Source: Agarivorans litoreus
GTDB taxonomy: Bacteria > Pseudomonadota > Gammaproteobacteria > Enterobacterales > Celerinatantimonadaceae
DNA length: 64,000 nucleotides
Direction of reading: 5' to 3'
NCBI RefSeq assembly: GCF_019649015.1
Contig: NZ_BLPI01000001.1
Location: forward strand, 3,963,001 to 4,027,000
Numbering within the stretch: the stretch's first letter is position 1; each line of letters opens with the position of its first letter. The notes beneath the pieces are model-generated. The model was given only the letters and a program-made list of their open reading frames with translations, did no database searches and was not told the DNA's origin. Of the stretch, positions 52,822 through 63,642 are shown piece by piece. The position numbers and the translations under genes were made by a program.

Positions 52822-53802
52822 CTAGCCTTGAGTATTAATGTGATGTTTTTTGATTAAACCCCTTAGTTGATGGTAGCTGATCTGTAAGGCTTTAGCGCAG
52901 GCCGTTTGTTTGTAATGATTATTCTCTAAGGCTTTAATGATCAATTGTTTCTCAAAGTTAGTCACTTGTTGATTAAAGCTGAGTTGTTCAAGGCCTAATT
53001 GTTGGTGGCTTTTTGCTGGTGTTAGGGGACGCCATGGAGAAGCAAATGGGTCTAAGTTTATAGCATCAACTAAACCTTGGTGGTCGCTGTTCTCTACCAC
53101 CGCCCGCTCTACTACGTTTTTAAGTTCACGAATATTGCCAGGCCAAGAATAATTATTTAGTTGTGTTAGCACCGTTTGGCTAAAACTAGGGACGCGGGAA
53201 AAATTGAGCTCTCTGGCCATTTTGTGAGCAAAATGCTCGGCTAATAGCTGAATATCTTCAACGCGGTGGCGTAATGGCGGTAAGGTAATCACCGCGAAGG
53301 ATAATCGGTCTAGCAAATCAGCTCTAAAATCCCCTTGCTCTACTAATTCTGGAAGATCTTGGTTAGTGGCACACACTAATCGAACATCTACCTCAATGGG
53401 TTTATTACTGCCGAGGCGCTCAATTTTGTTGTATTCGATAGTACGTAATAGCTTTTCTTGCACTTCATTTGGCATGTTGGCCAGTTCATCTAAGAACAAG
53501 GTACCTTTATCCGCTTGTTCAAATCGGCCAATACGTTGCTGAGAAGCTCCGGTATATGCGCCGGCTTGATGGCCAAATAGTTCTGACTCAATTAAATTCG
53601 GGTTCAAGCTTGCGCAGTTTAAGCTTAAATAGTGTTTGTCCCAGCGCTCCGACAAAAAATGTAAGCGCTCGGCAATTAACTCTTTACCCGTGCCGCGTTC
53701 ACCAATAACCAGTACAGGTCGGTTTAGCGGAGCTAAGAGTGATACCTTGTCTAACACCTCCAAAAAACTAGGTGCCTTACCTAATAGGCTAGGGGAATCC
53801 AT
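52822..53802 (-). CDS. pspF: Psp operon transcriptional activator
   Basis: PspF is a sigma-54-dependent enhancer-binding protein that turns on the phage-shock operon and is held inactive by PspA. The 326-residue protein lacks a receiver domain, as PspF does. The AAA+ domain has Walker A GERGTGKE, the sigma-54 contact loop GAYTGA, and a Walker B FLDELANM. A Fis-type helix-turn-helix lies near the C-terminus (YKQTACAKALQISYHQLRGLIKK). It diverges from pspA over 172 bases that hold its binding sites and the sigma-54 promoter. Confidence 0.96.
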   Translation of the reverse strand: MDSPSLLGKAPSFLEVLDKVSLLAPLNRPVLVIGERGTGKELIAERLHFLSERWDKHYLSLNCASLNPNLIESELFGHQAGAYTGASQQRIGRFEQADKGTLFLDELANMPNEVQEKLLRTIEYNKIERLGSNKPIEVDVRLVCATNQDLPELVEQGDFRADLLDRLSFAVITLPPLRHRVEDIQLLAEHFAHKMARELNFSRVPSFSQTVLTQLNNYSWPGNIRELKNVVERAVVENSDHQGLVDAINLDPFASPWRPLTPAKSHQQLGLEQLSFNQQVTNFEKQLIIKALENNHYKQTACAKALQISYHQLRGLIKKHHINTQG

Positions 53803-53901
53803 TTGGTCTCTCTGACTAAAAGTTGGTTAATATAACTATATAGTCATCATTGAGTTTTGTCATTTATCTATAAAAATGATAAATATCAGTGCTTTGATAA
53901 C

Positions 53902-53918
53902 TTGGCATGCGACTTGTA
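53902..53918 (+). promoter_or_regulatory. Sigma-54 promoter of pspABC
   Basis: TTGGCATGCGACTTGTA matches the sigma-54 consensus (YTGGCAYGRNNNTTGCW) in all but two positions. The GG (53904-53905) and G of the -12 element (53916) have the required 10-base spacing between doublets. It lies 57 bases before pspA, between pspF and pspA as in E. coli. Confidence 0.8.
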
Positions 53919-53974
53919 ATTAATTGTTTCGAAAACATACATTGATCTTTATTCGACCTTATTAGGAGTCCCCC

Positions 53975-54643
53975 ATGGGAATGTTTAGCCGCTTAACAGA
54001 TATTATTAACTCCAACATCAGCACCATGTTGGATAAAGCTGAAGATCCGCAAAAGATGCTACGCCTTATCATTCAAGAAATGGAAGACACCTTGGTGGAA
54101 GTGCGTGCTAGTACTGCAAAAGTATTGGCCGATAAAAAACAGCTGATACGTAAAATTGAACATTTGGAAGAGCAAGCTGAAGATTGGCAGGCTAAAGCTG
54201 AACTTGCCTTAAGCCGCGAACGAGAAGATCTAGCACGCTTGGCTTTAGTTGAGAAAAAACACTTACAAGAGTCAATTAAGCAACAGCAAAAAGAGCTAGG
54301 CTTAGTGGATGATAGTTTATTGCAGTTGCAGCAAGAGATTGAGCAGCTAGAGCTTAAATTAAGCGAATCAAGAAATCGTCAAGCTGGTTTATTAGCTCGT
54401 CAAACCACAGCCAAAAACCGCCATGCGGTAAGGCAACAACTAGATAACGAACGCGCGTTAAAAACGCGAGAAAAATTTGAGCAGTTTCAAGCTAAGATAG
54501 ACCAACTTGAAGCACGCGCAGAAGTATTTGGTAAGGAAGGCGATAATAACCCTGACTTAAACAAGCAATTTGCTGAGTTAAGTGCTGACGCTGAGATTGC
54601 CGACGAGCTAGACAAGCTTAAAGCCAAGTTAGAGCAAAAATAG
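53975..54643 (+). CDS. pspA: Phage shock protein A
   Basis: PspA is a peripheral membrane protein of the ESCRT-III superfamily that seals damaged inner membrane and inhibits PspF. The 222-residue protein starts GMFSRLTDIINSNISTMLDKAEDPQKML, the family amphipathic helix plus helix 1, and is almost entirely coiled coil. It is expressed from the sigma-54 promoter and is followed by pspB after 8 bases. Confidence 0.97.
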   Translation: MGMFSRLTDIINSNISTMLDKAEDPQKMLRLIIQEMEDTLVEVRASTAKVLADKKQLIRKIEHLEEQAEDWQAKAELALSREREDLARLALVEKKHLQESIKQQQKELGLVDDSLLQLQQEIEQLELKLSESRNRQAGLLARQTTAKNRHAVRQQLDNERALKTREKFEQFQAKIDQLEARAEVFGKEGDNNPDLNKQFAELSADAEIADELDKLKAKLEQK

Positions 54644-54651
54644 GAGAGTTT

Positions 54652-54876
54652 ATGCTTACCGTATTGGTGACGCCGTTAATTTTGTTTATGGCCATAGTGG
54701 CCCCACTGTGGCTTATTTTACATTACAAGAGTAAGCGTCAGGTAGAACATGGGATAAGTGAACAGGAGCGTGAGCAGCTAAATGCTTTAGCTACTCGAGC
54801 CAAAGATATGTCAGCGCGCATTCATGCTTTAGAGAACATTTTAGACGAAAGCGTGCCGCATTGGAGGGAGCGCTAA
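54652..54876 (+). CDS. pspB: Phage shock protein B
   Basis: PspB is a small inner-membrane protein that with PspC relieves PspA inhibition of PspF. The 74-residue protein has one membrane segment (about 6-26) and a short cytoplasmic coiled coil, and its end is WRER. Its stop overlaps the pspC start by one base (TAATG). Confidence 0.93.
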   Translation: MLTVLVTPLILFMAIVAPLWLILHYKSKRQVEHGISEQEREQLNALATRAKDMSARIHALENILDESVPHWRER

Positions 54877-55250
54877 TGTTTGATAAACCGTTATATCGTG
54901 ACCCACAAAAAGGTAAAATTGCCGGGGTGTGTGCTGGTTTAGCACATAGCCTTGGCGCCGAAACATGGTTAATTCGAATAATTGCTGTGACTTTGGCTAT
55001 TACGAACCTAGGACTATTTCTTATTGTCTACGGCGCCGCGTGGTTATTTATGGATAAACGACCCAGCAACTTAAGAGGAGATGATGGGGTAATCATTAAG
55101 TCAAAAGTATGGCAAAGTGGAGATACACCTAGTCAAGCAGTTAGTGAGCTAGAGCATCAATTTGATGATTTTGAACAGCGTTTACGCAAAGTAGAAAAAG
55201 TAGTGACAGCACGAGATTTTGAGCTTCATAGTCAGTTTAAAAACCTCTAA
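54876..55250 (+). CDS. pspC: Phage shock protein C
   Basis: PspC is an inner-membrane protein that senses stress and recruits PspA. The ATG at 54876 is chosen: it follows a strong GGAGGGAG ribosome site (54863-54870), and the product begins FDKPLYRDPQKGKIAGVCAGLAH, the PspC domain. Membrane segments lie around residues 35-60. The C-terminal 40 residues are a coiled-coil-like helix. The operon stops here; no pspD or pspE is visible. Confidence 0.94.
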   Translation: MFDKPLYRDPQKGKIAGVCAGLAHSLGAETWLIRIIAVTLAITNLGLFLIVYGAAWLFMDKRPSNLRGDDGVIIKSKVWQSGDTPSQAVSELEHQFDDFEQRLRKVEKVVTARDFELHSQFKNL

Positions 55251-55280
55251 TTCGAGTACAGCATGGATACCTAGTTCAAA

Positions 55281-55328
55281 TTAACTCAAGTGAATCTTAA
55301 ATGACGCTTGGGTTAAGCTTACTTTTTT
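55281..55328 (+). terminator. Possible terminator after pspC
   Basis: TTAACTCAAG (55281-55290) pairs with CTTGGGTTAA (55307-55316) over a 16-base loop, followed within 7 bases by TTTTTT. The long loop makes this weaker than the others in the window. Confidence 0.45.
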
Positions 55329-55506
55329 GGTTAGACTAAAGGTGTATAAGATAATTGGACAGTCTAACTCACTGGTCAGATAGGGAAATAGGAGTGCTTT
55401 TGCGTTTAGTATGGATTGTTGGAGAGGGCGGGATGTGGTGTTGCTGTGAGTTTTTACAGGCCCTACAGCTGCTTTCGGCATCACTAAATGAGCAAGCGGC
55501 AACAAC

Positions 55507-56979
55507 ATGCGCATAGAGTTGAACTGCCAACAAAGTACCGAAGTTTTCAGCGCGGTTCTTGGCGTTTTAGTTAAACATGGCTTAGCGCTACAAGCCATGC
55601 AAAGTGTCGACACCGGACACTTGTTTCTTCACCTTACCGAATTAGAGCTTGCTCTAACACAGCAATTGCTTAGTGAATTTCGTTGTTTAAAAGGTGTTTC
55701 TGATGCACGTATCGTGTCGGCCTTGCCTTCTGAAGTTGAACATAAAGAAGTACAAATTCTGTTAGACAACGTCCCTTACCCTGTGGTGCTGATTGATAAA
55801 TCTGGAGAAATCCGTCAGTTTAATCAGGCCTTTGAGCAATCCTGCGGTGATACTCCTCATCCTCTTACCAATAGTGATATAAGCAGGTTTTTGCGTGGCT
55901 TTAGCGTGCAACGCTGGTTTGGTAGTGGTTCCGGTAAGCGAGAGCTAGTAGAAATTCAGCTAAGTGGTCGAGTCTACATGGCTGATATTATTCCGCTGTC
56001 AGAAACTGCGCTGTTTTCGCATCTACCCGGCGCGATCATGCTGTTTAAGTCAGCCCATTGGTTAGAGGCTAGCTTCGACTTATCGCAAATTGAACTTGGG
56101 ATTAGCGAAGGGCGTTTAGTTGCAACTAGCGATGAGACCAGCAACGTTCTTAATAGCTTAAAACGTTTAGTTGAACACCCAATGCCAACGCTATTGTTCG
56201 GAGAAGCGGGAGTGGGTAAGCGCTTTTTAGCACGTTTGTTAAACGAGCTTTCTATGGGCAGTGATGAACGCTTTCACGCGGTAAGCTGCCATAACCAAGA
56301 ATATAGTTTGTCTGAGCAACTAGCAGAAATTGCTGCTGAACAGCCTAATACGGTGTTGTTAAGCAATATTGAAAAACTAAAGAGCTGTGAAGTTGAAGAT
56401 GCGGTTAGCTCTCTAAGCGCGCCTCAACTCGGGATTAAACACCTGCTTTTTTCTAGCCGCTATACGCCTGAACAATTGGCCGCGCTATGGGGAGGCGACT
56501 GCTATTACTCGCTAATTAAAAACAGCATTAATGTTCCGCCACTTCGTCAGCGAAAAGAAGACATTGTGCCATTGGCACAATCTTGGTTAGATTTTCAGTA
56601 CGCTAAACACCAAGAAGTTCCGCCACCTTTAAGCAGAGAAGTAAAGCGCTACTTAAGTTCATTAAGCTGGCCGGGCAATATCCCTCAGCTATATCAAGTG
56701 CTGCAAGACTCCTTAGATATTGGCAGTATGAAAAAATGGCAAGTGAGTGACATTAAATATCATCATGAAAAAGTGGTAGATAATGTCAGTATTGAGAGCT
56801 TGCTGCAGCAAGATTACCACTCTGCGATGGGGGAGTTCGAACACTTGCTGTTAAGTTATCATTATCCTCAGCACCCTAGCTCGCGACTATTGGCGAAAAA
56901 GTTAGGTTTGTCTCATACCGCCATCGCCAATAAACTACGCGAACACAATATTCGTAATAAAACCGACTTAGACAATTAA
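55507..56979 (+). CDS. tyrR: TyrR-like regulator of aromatic amino acid genes, divergent AAA+ core
   Basis: TyrR controls genes for aromatic amino acid synthesis and uptake. Order of domains in the 490-residue protein is normal: an N-terminal ACT-like domain (MRIELNCQQSTEVFSAVLGVL), a PAS domain (about 85-135, VPYPVVLIDKSGEIRQFN), an AAA+ domain (about 205-410) and a C-terminal helix-turn-helix (SSRLLAKKLGLSHTAIANKL) close to E. coli TyrR. The AAA+ core is degraded: Walker A is GEAGVGKR, the Walker B acids are replaced in LLSNIEKL, and the arginine of the DLYYRLN motif reads DCYYSLIKN. ATP hydrolysis is doubtful. Its position near psp genes is the enterobacterial one. Confidence 0.85.
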   Translation: MRIELNCQQSTEVFSAVLGVLVKHGLALQAMQSVDTGHLFLHLTELELALTQQLLSEFRCLKGVSDARIVSALPSEVEHKEVQILLDNVPYPVVLIDKSGEIRQFNQAFEQSCGDTPHPLTNSDISRFLRGFSVQRWFGSGSGKRELVEIQLSGRVYMADIIPLSETALFSHLPGAIMLFKSAHWLEASFDLSQIELGISEGRLVATSDETSNVLNSLKRLVEHPMPTLLFGEAGVGKRFLARLLNELSMGSDERFHAVSCHNQEYSLSEQLAEIAAEQPNTVLLSNIEKLKSCEVEDAVSSLSAPQLGIKHLLFSSRYTPEQLAALWGGDCYYSLIKNSINVPPLRQRKEDIVPLAQSWLDFQYAKHQEVPPPLSREVKRYLSSLSWPGNIPQLYQVLQDSLDIGSMKKWQVSDIKYHHEKVVDNVSIESLLQQDYHSAMGEFEHLLLSYHYPQHPSSRLLAKKLGLSHTAIANKLREHNIRNKTDLDN

Positions 56980-59655: not shown

Positions 59656-59680
59656 AAGTCGCCTTAGGGCGACTTTTTTT
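59656..59680 (+). terminator. Intrinsic terminator after metC
   Basis: AAGTCGCC pairs with GGCGACTT over TTAG, followed by seven T's in all. Confidence 0.9.
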
Positions 59681-59777
59681 GGCCAATTGTCACAATTTGA
59701 TAACATTTTCCCAATCGGCTTGTTGCTTGAAATTTGCTTTGTTAGCGTTAATACATAATTAAAGCAAAGGAATGCAC

Positions 59778-60851
59778 ATGTTACTTCAAGCAACTTTAAA
59801 ATGGTCCACAACGCTGTTATTAGCGTGTTTACTTACTGCCTGTGGAGGAGGAAGTGATGGAGGAACGTCTTCACCGCCTTTAACCGGCGCGCAACTATTT
59901 AACCAAGCCGATCCCGCTGGTAATCAATTTTCTTGTAGCACTTGTCATGCTTCCAGTGAAAATGCGCAAGGCTTAGATGCGCTGCAACTGCATCGGCCGG
60001 CGCATTCTTTGTTAAACGCTACCCGCCGAAATGCCTTTTATAATGGTACGTTTAGCGAAGTGATTGATGCTGTAAACAATTGTCGAGTTGATTGGATGGA
60101 TGCAAGCCCTTATGTTAGCGACAGTAATGATTGGTTGGCATTAGAAGAATACTTAGCAGGCTTGAGCGATAGTGGTGATGCAACAGAAATTGCTTTTAAT
60201 CAAGTCGCTGCGGTTAGTGATTTTAGTGCAGCGGATATAAGCGCTGGGCATGAGCTATTTAATCAAACTTGTGCTACTTGCCATGGACAAAATGCCGCAG
60301 GGACCGGGCTAGCAAGAACGCTTGTGAGCAGCGGCTTAAGTGCTCAACAAGTGGCTAATAAGGTACGTAATTCTGGGCCAACTACCAGTAGTTATTTCAC
60401 CAACCTCTCTGGTGGCAGTATGCCGTTTTGGAGTGAGCAACGGCTCAGCGATCAGGAGCTAGTAGACATTGCTAGTTATGTTGAGAGCATTAATGGGCCG
60501 CAAAGCTTTAGTTGTAATGCTAGCGACCACCCTAAAGTTGGCCAAGTCGCCATGTTAAGCACACTTTCTCACAATGTGAGCGGGCGGGTAGAGATCATCG
60601 ACAATTGTACAATTGAAGTCACCGAGTTCAATTACGATGGTGGTGGCCCAGACGTACTATTTTATGGTGCTCCAAGCAGCAATTATACCCAAGGTGGTTT
60701 TGCTATCGGCGATATTATTAATGGCCCGATGTATAACAACGATACCTTAAGGTTAAGCTTAGCCAACGCCCAACAGTTAGATCAGCTAGCCGGCATTAGT
60801 GTATGGTGTCGAGATTTCAGCGTAAGTTTTGGCGACGGTTTATTTAATTAA
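59778..60851 (+). CDS. Diheme cytochrome c lipoprotein with C-terminal DM13 domain
   Basis: A 357-residue exported redox lipoprotein. The ATG at 59778 is chosen because AAAGG then lies at correct spacing; an earlier ATG at 59772 is too close to it. The lipobox is LLTAC with acylated Cys22. Two c-type heme motifs are CSTCH (53-57) and CATCH (about 165). The C-terminal 100 residues (about 255-357) look like a DM13 domain, with EFNYDGGGPDVLFYGA and ISVWCRDFSVSFGDG as its signatures. DM13 has been proposed to carry electrons through a conserved Cys. It is transcribed alone. Confidence 0.88.
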   Translation: MLLQATLKWSTTLLLACLLTACGGGSDGGTSSPPLTGAQLFNQADPAGNQFSCSTCHASSENAQGLDALQLHRPAHSLLNATRRNAFYNGTFSEVIDAVNNCRVDWMDASPYVSDSNDWLALEEYLAGLSDSGDATEIAFNQVAAVSDFSAADISAGHELFNQTCATCHGQNAAGTGLARTLVSSGLSAQQVANKVRNSGPTTSSYFTNLSGGSMPFWSEQRLSDQELVDIASYVESINGPQSFSCNASDHPKVGQVAMLSTLSHNVSGRVEIIDNCTIEVTEFNYDGGGPDVLFYGAPSSNYTQGGFAIGDIINGPMYNNDTLRLSLANAQQLDQLAGISVWCRDFSVSFGDGLFN

Positions 60852-60864
60852 ACACTAGGGGCTG

Positions 60865-63642
60865 TTACTCACAAGGCTGAGGTTTCCCAATGCCATAACC
60901 TTGAACAAAATCTACGCCTATTTCTTCTAACACTGCGTGGATTTCCGCATCTTCTACAAACTCAGCTACGGTTTTCATATTCATTAAATGTGCAATGGCA
61001 TTAATTGACTCAACAATGGCGCGGTCGGTAGGTTGTTTAACAATGTTGACCACCAAACTGCCGTCAATTTTTAGGTAATCGACCGGTAGGTTTTTTAAAT
61101 AACCAAATGACGAAGCACCACTGCCAAAATCGTCTAAGGCAAAACGAACCCCAATTGCTTTCATTTCTCGAATAAACTCAAGAGCCCTTGAGAGCTGTGA
61201 TATTGCTGCGGTTTCGGTTATCTCAAAGCAGATGTTTCTAGGGTTAACTTGTGAGCTTCGTAAGAGCTCTTTAACCCGATTTACAAATTCGTCATTACTT
61301 AGGCTAAGACCCGATAGATTTATCGATACCACGGTATCACCTTCGGGGAAGTATTGTTGATAGCGCTCGAATACCGTTTTTAAAACCCACTGGTCAATAA
61401 TGGTTATTACACTGTGCTTTTCTGCAGCAGGGATAAATAGATTAGGAGGAATGGTTTTACCATGTTCATCGCGGTAGCGGATTAAAATCTCATAATGTTT
61501 GTGGTTGTCTTGTTGGCCTATTGGCGCAATAACTTGCTTGGCTAAGTAGAATTGGTTTTGCTCTATTGCTTGGGCAACATTGGCGATGTAGCCCATTTGT
61601 TGTTCTTCATTAAATAACTCATCATCGTTTAGATTGGCAACATAAACCCGCCCACGGCCGGCTTCTTTGGCTTTGTAACAAGATAGGTCGGCTTTACTAA
61701 GTAACTCGGTGTCGTTTAATGCGCCAGTAATCGGCACCATGCCAATGCTCACACCTACGTTAAATAGCCGTTGATTCCAGTGAAAGCGGTAGCTATCAAC
61801 TTGTGCAATAACTGTTTCGCACAATTGCTGGGCATCGCTCAGGCTTTTATTTGGCAATATTAGGCCAAACTCATCACCGCCTAAGCGGCCAACAATATCT
61901 TGGTGAGTGGTACAGCGTTTAATCACGGTGGCTACTTCTGCCAACATCGCGTCACCGATAAGATGGCCTGCAGTATCGTTAACCAACTTAAATCGGTCTA
62001 AATCTAAAAAGCATAAAAAGCCACTAACAGCTTGCTGCTGAGATTGTTGCACATAAGTTTTAAGTTTCTCATTAAAACTAGAACGATTGATTAAACCTGT
62101 TAATTCATCGTAAGCGGCCTGATAAGCAAGCTTTTTACTCAACAGGTGTTCTTCAGTAATTTCTTTGCTAATGCCACGATAACCAATGTATAAGCCATGT
62201 TTATCAAATACCGGCTTACCATTAAGCAGGAATATTTTTATGTCTTTACTGGTAAGTTTTAGCTTAAAAGTTAAATTATTGATGGGCTGCTGGTAGGCAA
62301 GGGCGGCTTCATATTCAAGCCACGGAAAGCTTATGTTGGGGTCATGTTTGCACAGCTCTGCCAAGGTTTTACCAATAAGTTGATTGGGCTCTTGTCCATA
62401 CAGAACTTGGGTTTCGCCAGATATATAACTAAGGCGTTGCTCGGTATCTGTTTCCCAGAAAACATTCGCACCAGCATTAGCTAAATCTCGGTAGCGGGTT
62501 TCATTCTCCGCTAAAATTTGGCGGGTGATACTGCCGCGCCTAATAACTTCGGCGAGTAAGATGATGATCAAAATGCTCACGATAAATGCCGACACAACTA
62601 GGCGAACCATCAACTTGTATTTCTCGTAAAAGGTTTCTTCTTTGTTGATGATTAAAGCGCCGTCGGGCAGGGAATTGAGTTTAAAACTGTGTTCGTTTAG
62701 TTGCTCCCAGTTAAATACCCACTGGCTACGCGCTAAGGTAATGGGTTCAATGCTTTCTATCGGTTCGTTGCTTAGAATGCGTTTTACTAACTCGGCTGCT
62801 CGCATTGCATGTTGTCGGCCATCAAGCTCATCAGCCCCCACCGCGCCAAACTTGAGTGTGGTTATGGCAATGGTGTAAATCGGGTTATTAGTCCAAGTAG
62901 CCAGCTGCTCGGTGCCTTGGTTCCAACTTAGTAGCGCATTGTTTTGATTTGGGTTGGTGAGTTGCCCCAGTAACAACACCGGCACATTGCTGGAGAATTG
63001 GCTGAATACTTCGCTGATATCATCTAAAGATAGTTCTTCAATGACATGAATGTTACTTGGCGCGCCTGGTTTGCCAAATACTGTGCGTGCTTTGGCTAAA
63101 TTGGCTAAGCCTGTGGCACTTTTGTCAACAATTAGCACCAGCTCATCAACTCCGCTTTGGCTTTTGATGCTGGTTATTGTGCTGGCAATATCGCGGTTTT
63201 CAAATACCCCGGTCATATTTGGAGCATTGAGAACGTCTTCCGTTACTTGGTTAATGCCTAAATAAACGATGGGGGTGCTAGTGAAGAACTCGTTTCGATG
63301 GTGACGGATTAAGTTGAAAGCAGGGTCATCGGAAATAACAATAACATCTAGTTCAGTGCTGGAATATTTGGTCTTGAGATACTTCAAAAAGCTTAGGTTG
63401 AACTCACCTTGTGGATAGCGTTTAGCATCTAAGTATTCGTGGAATAATCGAGTATCTTGATCTTCTTTGAACGAGCTGTCTAAGCCCTTTTTTAGGTATC
63501 CTGTCCAAAAATGCTCTGCATGGTAAGAGTGGATAACTAACACATTATTGTTAGCCTGAGCGGCAAAACTTAAGGCTGCAAATAGTGCAAATAAAGGCAA
63601 TATACTTTTTAACAGATATTTTAGGGTAATCGAGTTTTTCAA
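60865..63642 (-). CDS. GGDEF-EAL protein with ABC-type substrate-binding sensor and PAS
   Basis: A 925-residue inner-membrane c-di-GMP protein. The signal/first membrane segment (about 10-28) leads to a periplasmic domain of the ABC_sub_bind type (VIHSYHAEHFWTGYLKKGLD, about 34-310). A membrane segment lies at about 345-368, a PAS domain at about 380-500, a GGDEF domain with intact GGDEF (about 587-591), and an EAL domain whose motif is EIL (about 717) but which keeps DDFGSGAS and DYLKIDG. Dual activity is possible. The gene converges on the cytochrome gene with 13 bases between their ends. Confidence 0.93.
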   Translation of the reverse strand: MKNSITLKYLLKSILPLFALFAALSFAAQANNNVLVIHSYHAEHFWTGYLKKGLDSSFKEDQDTRLFHEYLDAKRYPQGEFNLSFLKYLKTKYSSTELDVIVISDDPAFNLIRHHRNEFFTSTPIVYLGINQVTEDVLNAPNMTGVFENRDIASTITSIKSQSGVDELVLIVDKSATGLANLAKARTVFGKPGAPSNIHVIEELSLDDISEVFSQFSSNVPVLLLGQLTNPNQNNALLSWNQGTEQLATWTNNPIYTIAITTLKFGAVGADELDGRQHAMRAAELVKRILSNEPIESIEPITLARSQWVFNWEQLNEHSFKLNSLPDGALIINKEETFYEKYKLMVRLVVSAFIVSILIIILLAEVIRRGSITRQILAENETRYRDLANAGANVFWETDTEQRLSYISGETQVLYGQEPNQLIGKTLAELCKHDPNISFPWLEYEAALAYQQPINNLTFKLKLTSKDIKIFLLNGKPVFDKHGLYIGYRGISKEITEEHLLSKKLAYQAAYDELTGLINRSSFNEKLKTYVQQSQQQAVSGFLCFLDLDRFKLVNDTAGHLIGDAMLAEVATVIKRCTTHQDIVGRLGGDEFGLILPNKSLSDAQQLCETVIAQVDSYRFHWNQRLFNVGVSIGMVPITGALNDTELLSKADLSCYKAKEAGRGRVYVANLNDDELFNEEQQMGYIANVAQAIEQNQFYLAKQVIAPIGQQDNHKHYEILIRYRDEHGKTIPPNLFIPAAEKHSVITIIDQWVLKTVFERYQQYFPEGDTVVSINLSGLSLSNDEFVNRVKELLRSSQVNPRNICFEITETAAISQLSRALEFIREMKAIGVRFALDDFGSGASSFGYLKNLPVDYLKIDGSLVVNIVKQPTDRAIVESINAIAHLMNMKTVAEFVEDAEIHAVLEEIGVDFVQGYGIGKPQPCE

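Follow-up and report, generated by a model that had tools for sequence, protein, structure and literature searches.

A gene of Agarivorans litoreus, lying in the 64,000-nucleotide stretch of DNA analyzed here (the window), encodes a lipoprotein in which a diheme cytochrome module is joined to a C-terminal DM13 domain. This cytochrome-DM13 fusion is a real, conserved, and uncommon architecture. Judged from its sequence, the protein is most likely an electron relay of the cell envelope with a Cys-ligated heme, and DM13 would form the specific end of the relay, by either electron transfer or docking. The features of the gene and its surroundings are listed in Table 1.

Table 1. Features of the fusion gene and its flanks (positions in the window; residues in 357-aa numbering).
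Feature	Position	Strand	Basis or remark
Terminator-like hairpin between the upstream Cys/Met-metabolism gene and the fusion	59656..59675	+	Consensus match only
CDS, 357-aa diheme cytochrome-DM13 lipoprotein	59778..60851	+	ORF, RBS-like motif, same-genus copies
Signal peptide and lipobox LTAC	59778..59843	+	Sequence; codon of predicted lipid-attachment Cys22 at 59841-59843
Cytochrome domain 1, SoxA/TsdA-like	59880..60176	+	PF21342, 28.4 bits; SoxA profile matches
Heme 1 motif CSTCH (Cys53, Cys56, His57; residues 53-57)	59934..59948	+	Sequence; invariant in 12 rows
Cys102, predicted distal ligand of heme 1	60081..60083	+	Invariant in 12 rows; on TsdA-type Cys by hhalign
Cytochrome domain 2, class I (cbb3-III-like)	60225..60491	+	PF13442, 50.2 bits; PF00034, 44.2 bits
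Heme 2 motif CATCH (Cys165, Cys168, His169; residues 165-169)	60270..60284	+	Sequence; invariant in 12 rows
Met215 of MPFW, predicted distal ligand of heme 2	60420..60422	+	Invariant in 12 rows; on TsdA-type NMPL
DM13 domain	60513..60848	+	Pfam core 60555-60836; PF10517, 64 and 61 bits; AF2 model
His265, near-universal in DM13	60570..60572	+	108/112 distinct DM13 domains
Cys277, predicted disulfide partner of Cys246 (60513-60515)	60606..60608	+	Cys co-occurrence, 112 domains
Cys344 of SVWC, near-universal lone Cys	60807..60809	+	110/112 distinct DM13 domains
PAS/GGDEF/EAL protein gene, 925 aa, convergent	60868-63642	-	Weak ABC-substrate-binding match

The ATG at 59778 has the sequence AAGGA six bases 5' of it. 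An alternative ATG at 59772, which would give a 359-aa version, directly follows the AAGGA, and this codon is Leu and not Met in two Agarivorans copies (L006, L007). A sequence-only reading had described a lipid anchor, two CxxCH motifs, and a C-terminal DM13 domain in one polypeptide. All three were recovered as LTAC with Cys22, CSTCH and CATCH, and a match to PF10517 when Pfam was run (61.1 bits, E 1.9e-16, cut-off 25), with SVWC near the C-terminal end of the 357-aa protein. In 359-aa numbering (minus 2 for the 357-aa protein), Pfam placed DM13 at 262-355, Cytochrome_CBB3 (PF13442, 50.2 bits, cut-off 27) at 155-237, and SoxA-TsdA_cyt-c (PF21342) at 97-133, the last just above its cut-off of 27 with 28.4 bits and covering only profile positions 48-84 of 88. 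DM13 had been put at residues 250-357; its presence stood, and its extent was revised to 246-357 by alignment, with a Pfam core of 260-353.

Among the 12 aligned fusion rows, 11 keep Cys22, and only L143, a copy that looks damaged, does not; the residue following Cys22 is Gly, not Asp. By the Lol sorting rule, the residue after the lipid-carrying Cys decides the membrane, and Gly leads to the outer membrane; the fusion lipoprotein is therefore predicted to be sorted to the outer membrane. The reading frame, both CxxCH motifs, and SVWC are intact in all six Agarivorans genomes, the other five copies being 67-97% identical. As nothing is broken across these six genomes, we concluded that the fusion is not due to chance. 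The genome search found a single DM13 match in A. litoreus, the fusion gene itself (64 bits), and none in 14 control genomes. The A. litoreus genome encodes three members of PF01578, the cytochrome c assembly family, and covalent attachment of both c-type hemes is predicted.

When 148 genomes of the order were searched with the whole protein, 31 matched at E ≤ 0.001. A match along the protein was seen only in the six Agarivorans genomes (68-100% identity). Four genomes (G044, G072, G082, G134) matched in DM13 alone at 46-52%, and the remaining ones in the cytochrome part alone, except for G091, which matched with the N-terminus alone. Surveys detected DM13 in 39 of 369 genomes of Gammaproteobacteria and in 37 of 398 genomes of a sample of the whole phylum Pseudomonadota. 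We read 66 loci from two Pseudomonadota surveys and earlier searches (three are duplicates; 11 DM13 places per survey, with open frames of 130-260 aa and one of 33, are not among them). CxxCH was present in the DM13 frame at seven of these loci, all from Agarivorans, and lacking at 59, and no fusion beyond Agarivorans occurred among the DM13 loci read in the two Pseudomonadota surveys.

The alignment of the DM13 subfamily against named genomes yielded 57 loci, 49 of them without CxxCH. Two CxxCH motifs in the DM13 frame were found at seven: L088 (Agarivorans) and L108, L126, L134, L137, L140, and L141, which stem from MAGs, one deltaproteobacterial, one of Polyangiaceae, one of Kofleriaceae, and three loosely named. 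A Halieaceae MAG carries a copy with one CxxCH (L143:4092-5228), which lacks the first heme motif and a portion of DM13, perhaps by decay or misassembly. In the phylum to which the Polyangiaceae MAG L126 belongs, DM13 occurred at 24 places in 22 of 282 genomes. The diheme fusion made up 11 of these places, in 11 genomes (including L126 as the centre genome, L137, and L140), and 13 were without CxxCH. The sequence-only reading had proposed other genomes as the place to look for the same fusion, and it was found there, in both the five other Agarivorans genomes and the 11 of 282 of this distant phylum.

The cytochrome part was identified as a module of the TsdA/SoxA type. PF21342 reached 33 bits over profile positions 2-83 in the fusion of L134, and 22.9 bits, below the cut-off, in that of L108. 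A profile of eight fusion domain-1 rows matched SoxA in the PDB (1h31, E 7.3e-8; 2c1d, E 4.1e-7), and Cys102 was aligned with SoxA cysteines; TsdA was not among the PDB matches of this profile. With the whole fusion protein as a single-sequence query, TsdA appeared with E values between 0.029 and 0.054, well behind other cytochromes. When the fusion was aligned by hhalign with three proteins of the TsdA type from its order, both domains were covered (96.6% probability, E 6e-10), and both CxxCH motifs, Cys102, and Met215 fell on their TsdA-type counterparts. Of these three proteins, L026 matches the solved TsdA at E 6.5e-50 and shares 58 and 50% identity with the other two. The full-length AF2 model (35 rows; pLDDT 80, pTM 0.62) was weak between domains, and residues 206-216 were below 50. 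All eight Foldseek matches of this model at E ≤ 0.001 were TsdA/TsdBA, and VIA aligned 164 residues with 4v2k (Z 8.8) with an rmsd of 6.0, which is large; SOD structures matched the DM13 part with an equal Z. Thus, the two-domain diheme layout with the His/Cys and His/Met positions of TsdA was found by hhalign, Foldseek, and VIA.

The heme ligands of TsdA are His80/Cys123 and His191/Met236 according to the available text of PMC4423706. Since the invariant Cys102 falls on the heme-ligating cysteine of TsdA, heme 1 of the fusion is probably His/Cys-ligated, and heme 2 is probably His/Met-ligated. The label cytochrome c given by the sequence-only reading was right for the c-type heme motifs and too general for a TsdA/SoxA-like module with a probable Cys-ligated heme. 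The same available text names Arg119 and Ser127 as active-site residues of TsdA and describes Arg119 as kept without exception in TsdA and SoxA. The fusion has Ala98 and Trp106 at these positions, four residues before and four after the heme-ligand Cys within one ungapped hhalign block, and the combination of Ala98, Cys102, and Trp106 was present in all 18 fusion rows read. Because of these two replacements, the fusion protein is probably not a thiosulfate dehydrogenase. As far as residues can tell, the module shares the structural plan of TsdA and falls outside the TsdA family by its active site, and the fusion points to a branch of the SoxA/TsdA Cys-ligated modules that lacks the thiosulfate active site.

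Like TsdA of Allochromatium vinosum (4v2k/4wq7), the fusion has a SoxA-like N-terminal domain with a heme-1 Cys and a class I C-terminal domain with Met; unlike TsdA, it lacks Arg119 and Ser127 and is a lipoprotein with a DM13 tail. Domain 1 matches both domains of SoxA (1h31, 2c1d), but the fusion combines one SoxA-like with one class I domain, is without the catalytic Arg, and is surrounded by Cys/Met-metabolism and GGDEF/EAL genes and not by sox genes.

Within the L126 phylum, the domain-1 profile (E ≤ 1e-6) matched at least 24 places in at least 20 of 188 genomes among the best 26 candidates per genome. The best seven matches (E < 1e-36), two of which had been in the search profile, were all fused, and the other 17 (E 2.5e-18 to 8.9e-7) were unfused. 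All 17 unfused relatives keep the domain-1 Cys, and 16 are without both Arg and Ser; the remaining one, L192, has both TsdA residues and resembles TsdA. In the class to which A. litoreus belongs, the profile matched in 4 of 274 genomes, and the three besides the own genome were weak, with one CxxCH each. A related family was noticed in the L126 phylum (L181-L191, L194-L197), whose members are diheme proteins with a SoxA/TsdA-like Cys, no DM13, and no TsdA Arg. Unfused proteins such as L181, L186, and L189 share the two CxxCH motifs and the domain-1 Cys with the fusion but lack DM13 and stand on the opposite side of the diheme tree, where the support is only 75/59.

The conserved Cys of SVWC noted by the sequence-only reading proved to be Cys344. 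Over 112 distinct DM13 domains, it was kept in 110, Gly269 in 111, and His265 and Trp343 in 108 each. In the two domains without Cys344, the residue is Tyr (L092, which keeps the Cys246/Cys277-type pair) or the contig ends first (L141). A Cys within 24 residues upstream of His265 was present in 62 of 62 rows with Cys277 and in none of the 50 rows without it. As the two occur together or not at all, Cys246 and Cys277 probably form a disulfide and Cys344 is probably a lone cysteine. The 62 rows form one subfamily, so this pattern stands for few independent events.

The AF2 model of DM13 was confident (pLDDT 95, pTM 0.88). Foldseek gave no match at E ≤ 0.001 (best E 0.05). With VIA, the best 50 rows were Cu,Zn-SOD or SOD-chaperone structures (rmsd 2.8 over 99 residues), with a Z of 8.6, which is at the edge of the range that common fold arrangements give. 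The modeled barrel may thus bear a weak likeness to the Greek-key fold of Cu,Zn-SOD; if it is SOD-like, the strand order of the model would place His265, in loop 1-2, and Cys344, where strand 7 ends, at one end of the barrel. No DM13 was recognizable by sequence among the solved structures (best E 0.061 for the single sequence, 0.58 for the profile).

Pfam names PF10517 'Electron transfer DM13', and the electron-transfer role is given as a prediction in the available text of PMC7189620 and PMC4140639. The domain has been called so by association, as far as the available literature goes, also in cuticle proteins of insects and in a protein accessory to a sensor system of staphylococci. SaeP of Staphylococcus aureus and insect Knickkopf combine DM13 with a membrane anchor, as the fusion does; unlike in the fusion, no c-type cytochrome domain is mentioned in the available text on them (PMC7189620, PMC4140639). 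In the DM13 literature, as far as its text was available, we found no redox activity measured for any DM13 and noticed no cytochrome c-DM13 fusion; Iyer et al. (2007), to whom the proposed role is credited, may mention one. As the fusion carries two spectroscopically visible hemes on the same chain, the question of electron carrying by DM13 is open to stopped-flow measurements or titration with point mutants, and the fusion of the distant bacteria is a natural construct for this.

The reading we favor, at a little under an even chance, is that of a lipid-anchored relay sorted to the outer membrane with DM13 as its redox or docking end. It builds on the observed domain composition, conservation, TsdA-like layout, and lack of TsdA catalytic residues. 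The ligation of the hemes, the membrane and its side, the direction of electron flow, and any redox role of DM13 are predicted. Domain 1 would hold a low-potential His57/Cys102 heme (about -185 mV for the His/Cys heme 1 of TsdA in the available text of PMC6879331), and the His169/Met215 heme of domain 2 would have a higher potential. With a TsdA-like packing, electrons would move fast from one heme to the other, and heme 2 could exchange electrons with soluble c-type cytochromes. The C-terminal DM13 would be the specific end of the relay, where the conserved His265/Cys344 site would either exchange electrons with the hemes or dock a redox partner. Besides the TsdA-type matches, the occurrence in a distant phylum, and the conserved His265/Cys344 site, the gene context of other DM13 proteins is in line with such a relay.

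At 23 of 61 DM13 loci (57 from the named-genome scan and four from the order search, with one duplicate pair), a gene for a GMC oxidoreductase is found upstream of DM13 in the same orientation. Against the relay, the other 38 show no GMC gene, although some flanks are short. At 20 of the 23 loci, the GMC gene comes after genes that match a thioredoxin-like protein and a Gluconate_2-dh3 Tat protein, both matches lying in one frame in L144; L008, L010, and L096 end before any preceding genes could show. The gene order at the 20 loci (e.g., L098:1288-5336) is thioredoxin-like protein, Tat protein resembling gluconate dehydrogenase subunit 3, GMC dehydrogenase, and DM13 lipoprotein. Pfam detected no cytochrome domain in the four proteins of the L098 operon (L098:1000-6300); the thioredoxin-like protein contains a CxxCH string, and the DM13 lipoprotein is the last gene. 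The third subunit of gluconate dehydrogenases is normally a cytochrome c. Like the fusion, the DM13 lipoproteins of Colwellia have DM13 and a membrane anchor, and in the L098 protein Pfam finds DM13 alone. The association with GMC dehydrogenase operons favors a redox role for DM13; the 23 loci belong mostly to Colwellia relatives, so the linkage represents few independent events.

Other observations count against the relay, in addition to the weak inter-domain part of the full AF2 model and the lack of a measured DM13 redox activity in the available literature. The ORFs neighboring the fusion at seven loci beyond the genus contained no CxxCH, and Pfam revealed no redox or other partner common to the loci among 14 neighbors (L108, L126, L134, L137, L140, L141, and L143). 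The families were IgGFc_binding, Spond_N, molybdenum/FAD dehydrogenase (two L134 ORFs), sigma factor, inositol-phosphate synthase, LysM, phosphomannose isomerase, phosphotransferase, MMPL, CorC-like, and SIMPL, and two neighbors had no matches. Redox genes were seen only at L134, where the dehydrogenase pair lies on the other strand. In Catenovulum and relatives, a close DM13 lipoprotein stands alone. We looked for the diheme half elsewhere in 12 genomes of Catenovulum, Psychrosphaera, and other DM13 carriers and found no split pair; 11 of them had weak diheme matches only (best E 1.0e-7), none spanning heme 1 or Cys102. As these genomes lack a matching diheme protein, DM13 does not need the diheme module. 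The sequence-only reading had taken the fusion as direct support for electron carrying by DM13. This was too strong, since the fusion is an association, most of the DM13 proteins read are without CxxCH, and the DM13 of Catenovulum stands alone; the fusion supports an electron-carrying DM13 by association only.

Between MPFW and the first Cys of DM13, the 18 fusion rows have anywhere from 31 to 69 residues, which argues against a fixed heme-DM13 geometry. This variation fits a second explanation, which we regard as plausible though clearly short of an even chance: DM13 would carry no electrons itself and would serve as a docking or ligand-binding domain that holds the cytochrome at a partner, a polymer, or the envelope. 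The many DM13 proteins without CxxCH agree with it, a shared fold proves no function, and Knickkopf, with DM13 and DOMON, acts in the organization of chitin in the insect cuticle (available text of PMC4140639). However, the near-universal His and lone Cys suggest a site for reaction or ligand holding more than a surface for binding, and the recurrent GMC dehydrogenase operon also speaks against pure docking.

A more far-reaching proposal, rather unlikely in our view, is that DM13 would be an SOD-like barrel with a His265/Cys344 redox center (metal or thiol) and that intramolecular exchange with the Cys-ligated heme would make the fusion a new kind of cytochrome. The free DM13 lipoprotein of Colwellia relatives would then replace the cytochrome subunit of a gluconate-dehydrogenase-like complex, and the fusion would have arisen twice, or once and then been split or rebuilt.

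We consider it quite unlikely that the protein is a sulfur- or thiol-oxidizing enzyme, in which the Cys102-ligated heme would perform S-S chemistry as in TsdA or SoxA on Cys344 of DM13 as the thiol substrate, similar to SoxY for SoxA. The module does have a catalytic-type Cys with a lone DM13 Cys on the same chain, and TsdA works via a cysteine S-thiosulfonate (available text of PMC4423706), but Arg119 and Ser127 are replaced in all 18 fusion rows read, and domain 1 is closer to the N-terminal than to the catalytic domain of SoxA 1h31 (19.6 vs 12.9 bits). An ordinary thiosulfate dehydrogenase with a decorative tail, as the domain order and fold would allow, is highly improbable, since the catalytic residues are not kept, and each of the three TsdA-type proteins from the order is encoded by a gene of its own, next to another cytochrome gene, and is only 25-28% identical to the fusion where the match spans both domains. 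There is likewise very little to be said for a vestigial or unused gene retained by Agarivorans: within the family the fusion was seen only there, with no match in three sister-genus genomes that have other genes at the site, but the six copies show no frame damage and keep the heme-motif residues, Cys102, Met215, and the DM13 Cys and His invariant at identities down to 67%.

For the origin of the fusion, the trees disagree. In the diheme tree (with 15 of the 17 unfused rows of the L126 phylum; L192, L193, and L143 left out), all 20 fused rows lie on one side, with the weak support given above. The DM13 tree, built from 72 Cys277-subfamily rows over 117 columns without L141 and L143, groups Agarivorans with DM13 proteins that stand alone in Catenovulum, one Psychrosphaera, and one MAG (support 99/98), and a single clade of fused DM13 was rejected (p-AU 1.3e-5). 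Either two fusions in the same order took place or one fusion was later lost, split, or rebuilt. Under either origin, a functional linkage of the diheme module and DM13 is suggested.

A gene of the isocitrate/isopropylmalate dehydrogenase family and the Cys/Met PLP gene are adjacent in all three sister-genus genomes, where other genes come after them. This pairing is old, because it is kept where the fusion is absent. An operon of the fusion with the upstream Cys/Met PLP enzyme, and with it a link to sulfur, was rejected in view of this old adjacency and of the intervening terminator-like hairpin, whose consensus has two matches in the region vs 1.8 expected by chance. The other five Agarivorans genomes (L003-L007) likewise have the GGDEF/EAL gene after the fusion. 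Further upstream in the window, at 52822-56979, there is a phage-shock-like cluster followed by a putative TyrR-like regulator gene; the genes of the cluster are presumably PspF-, PspA-, and PspC-like.
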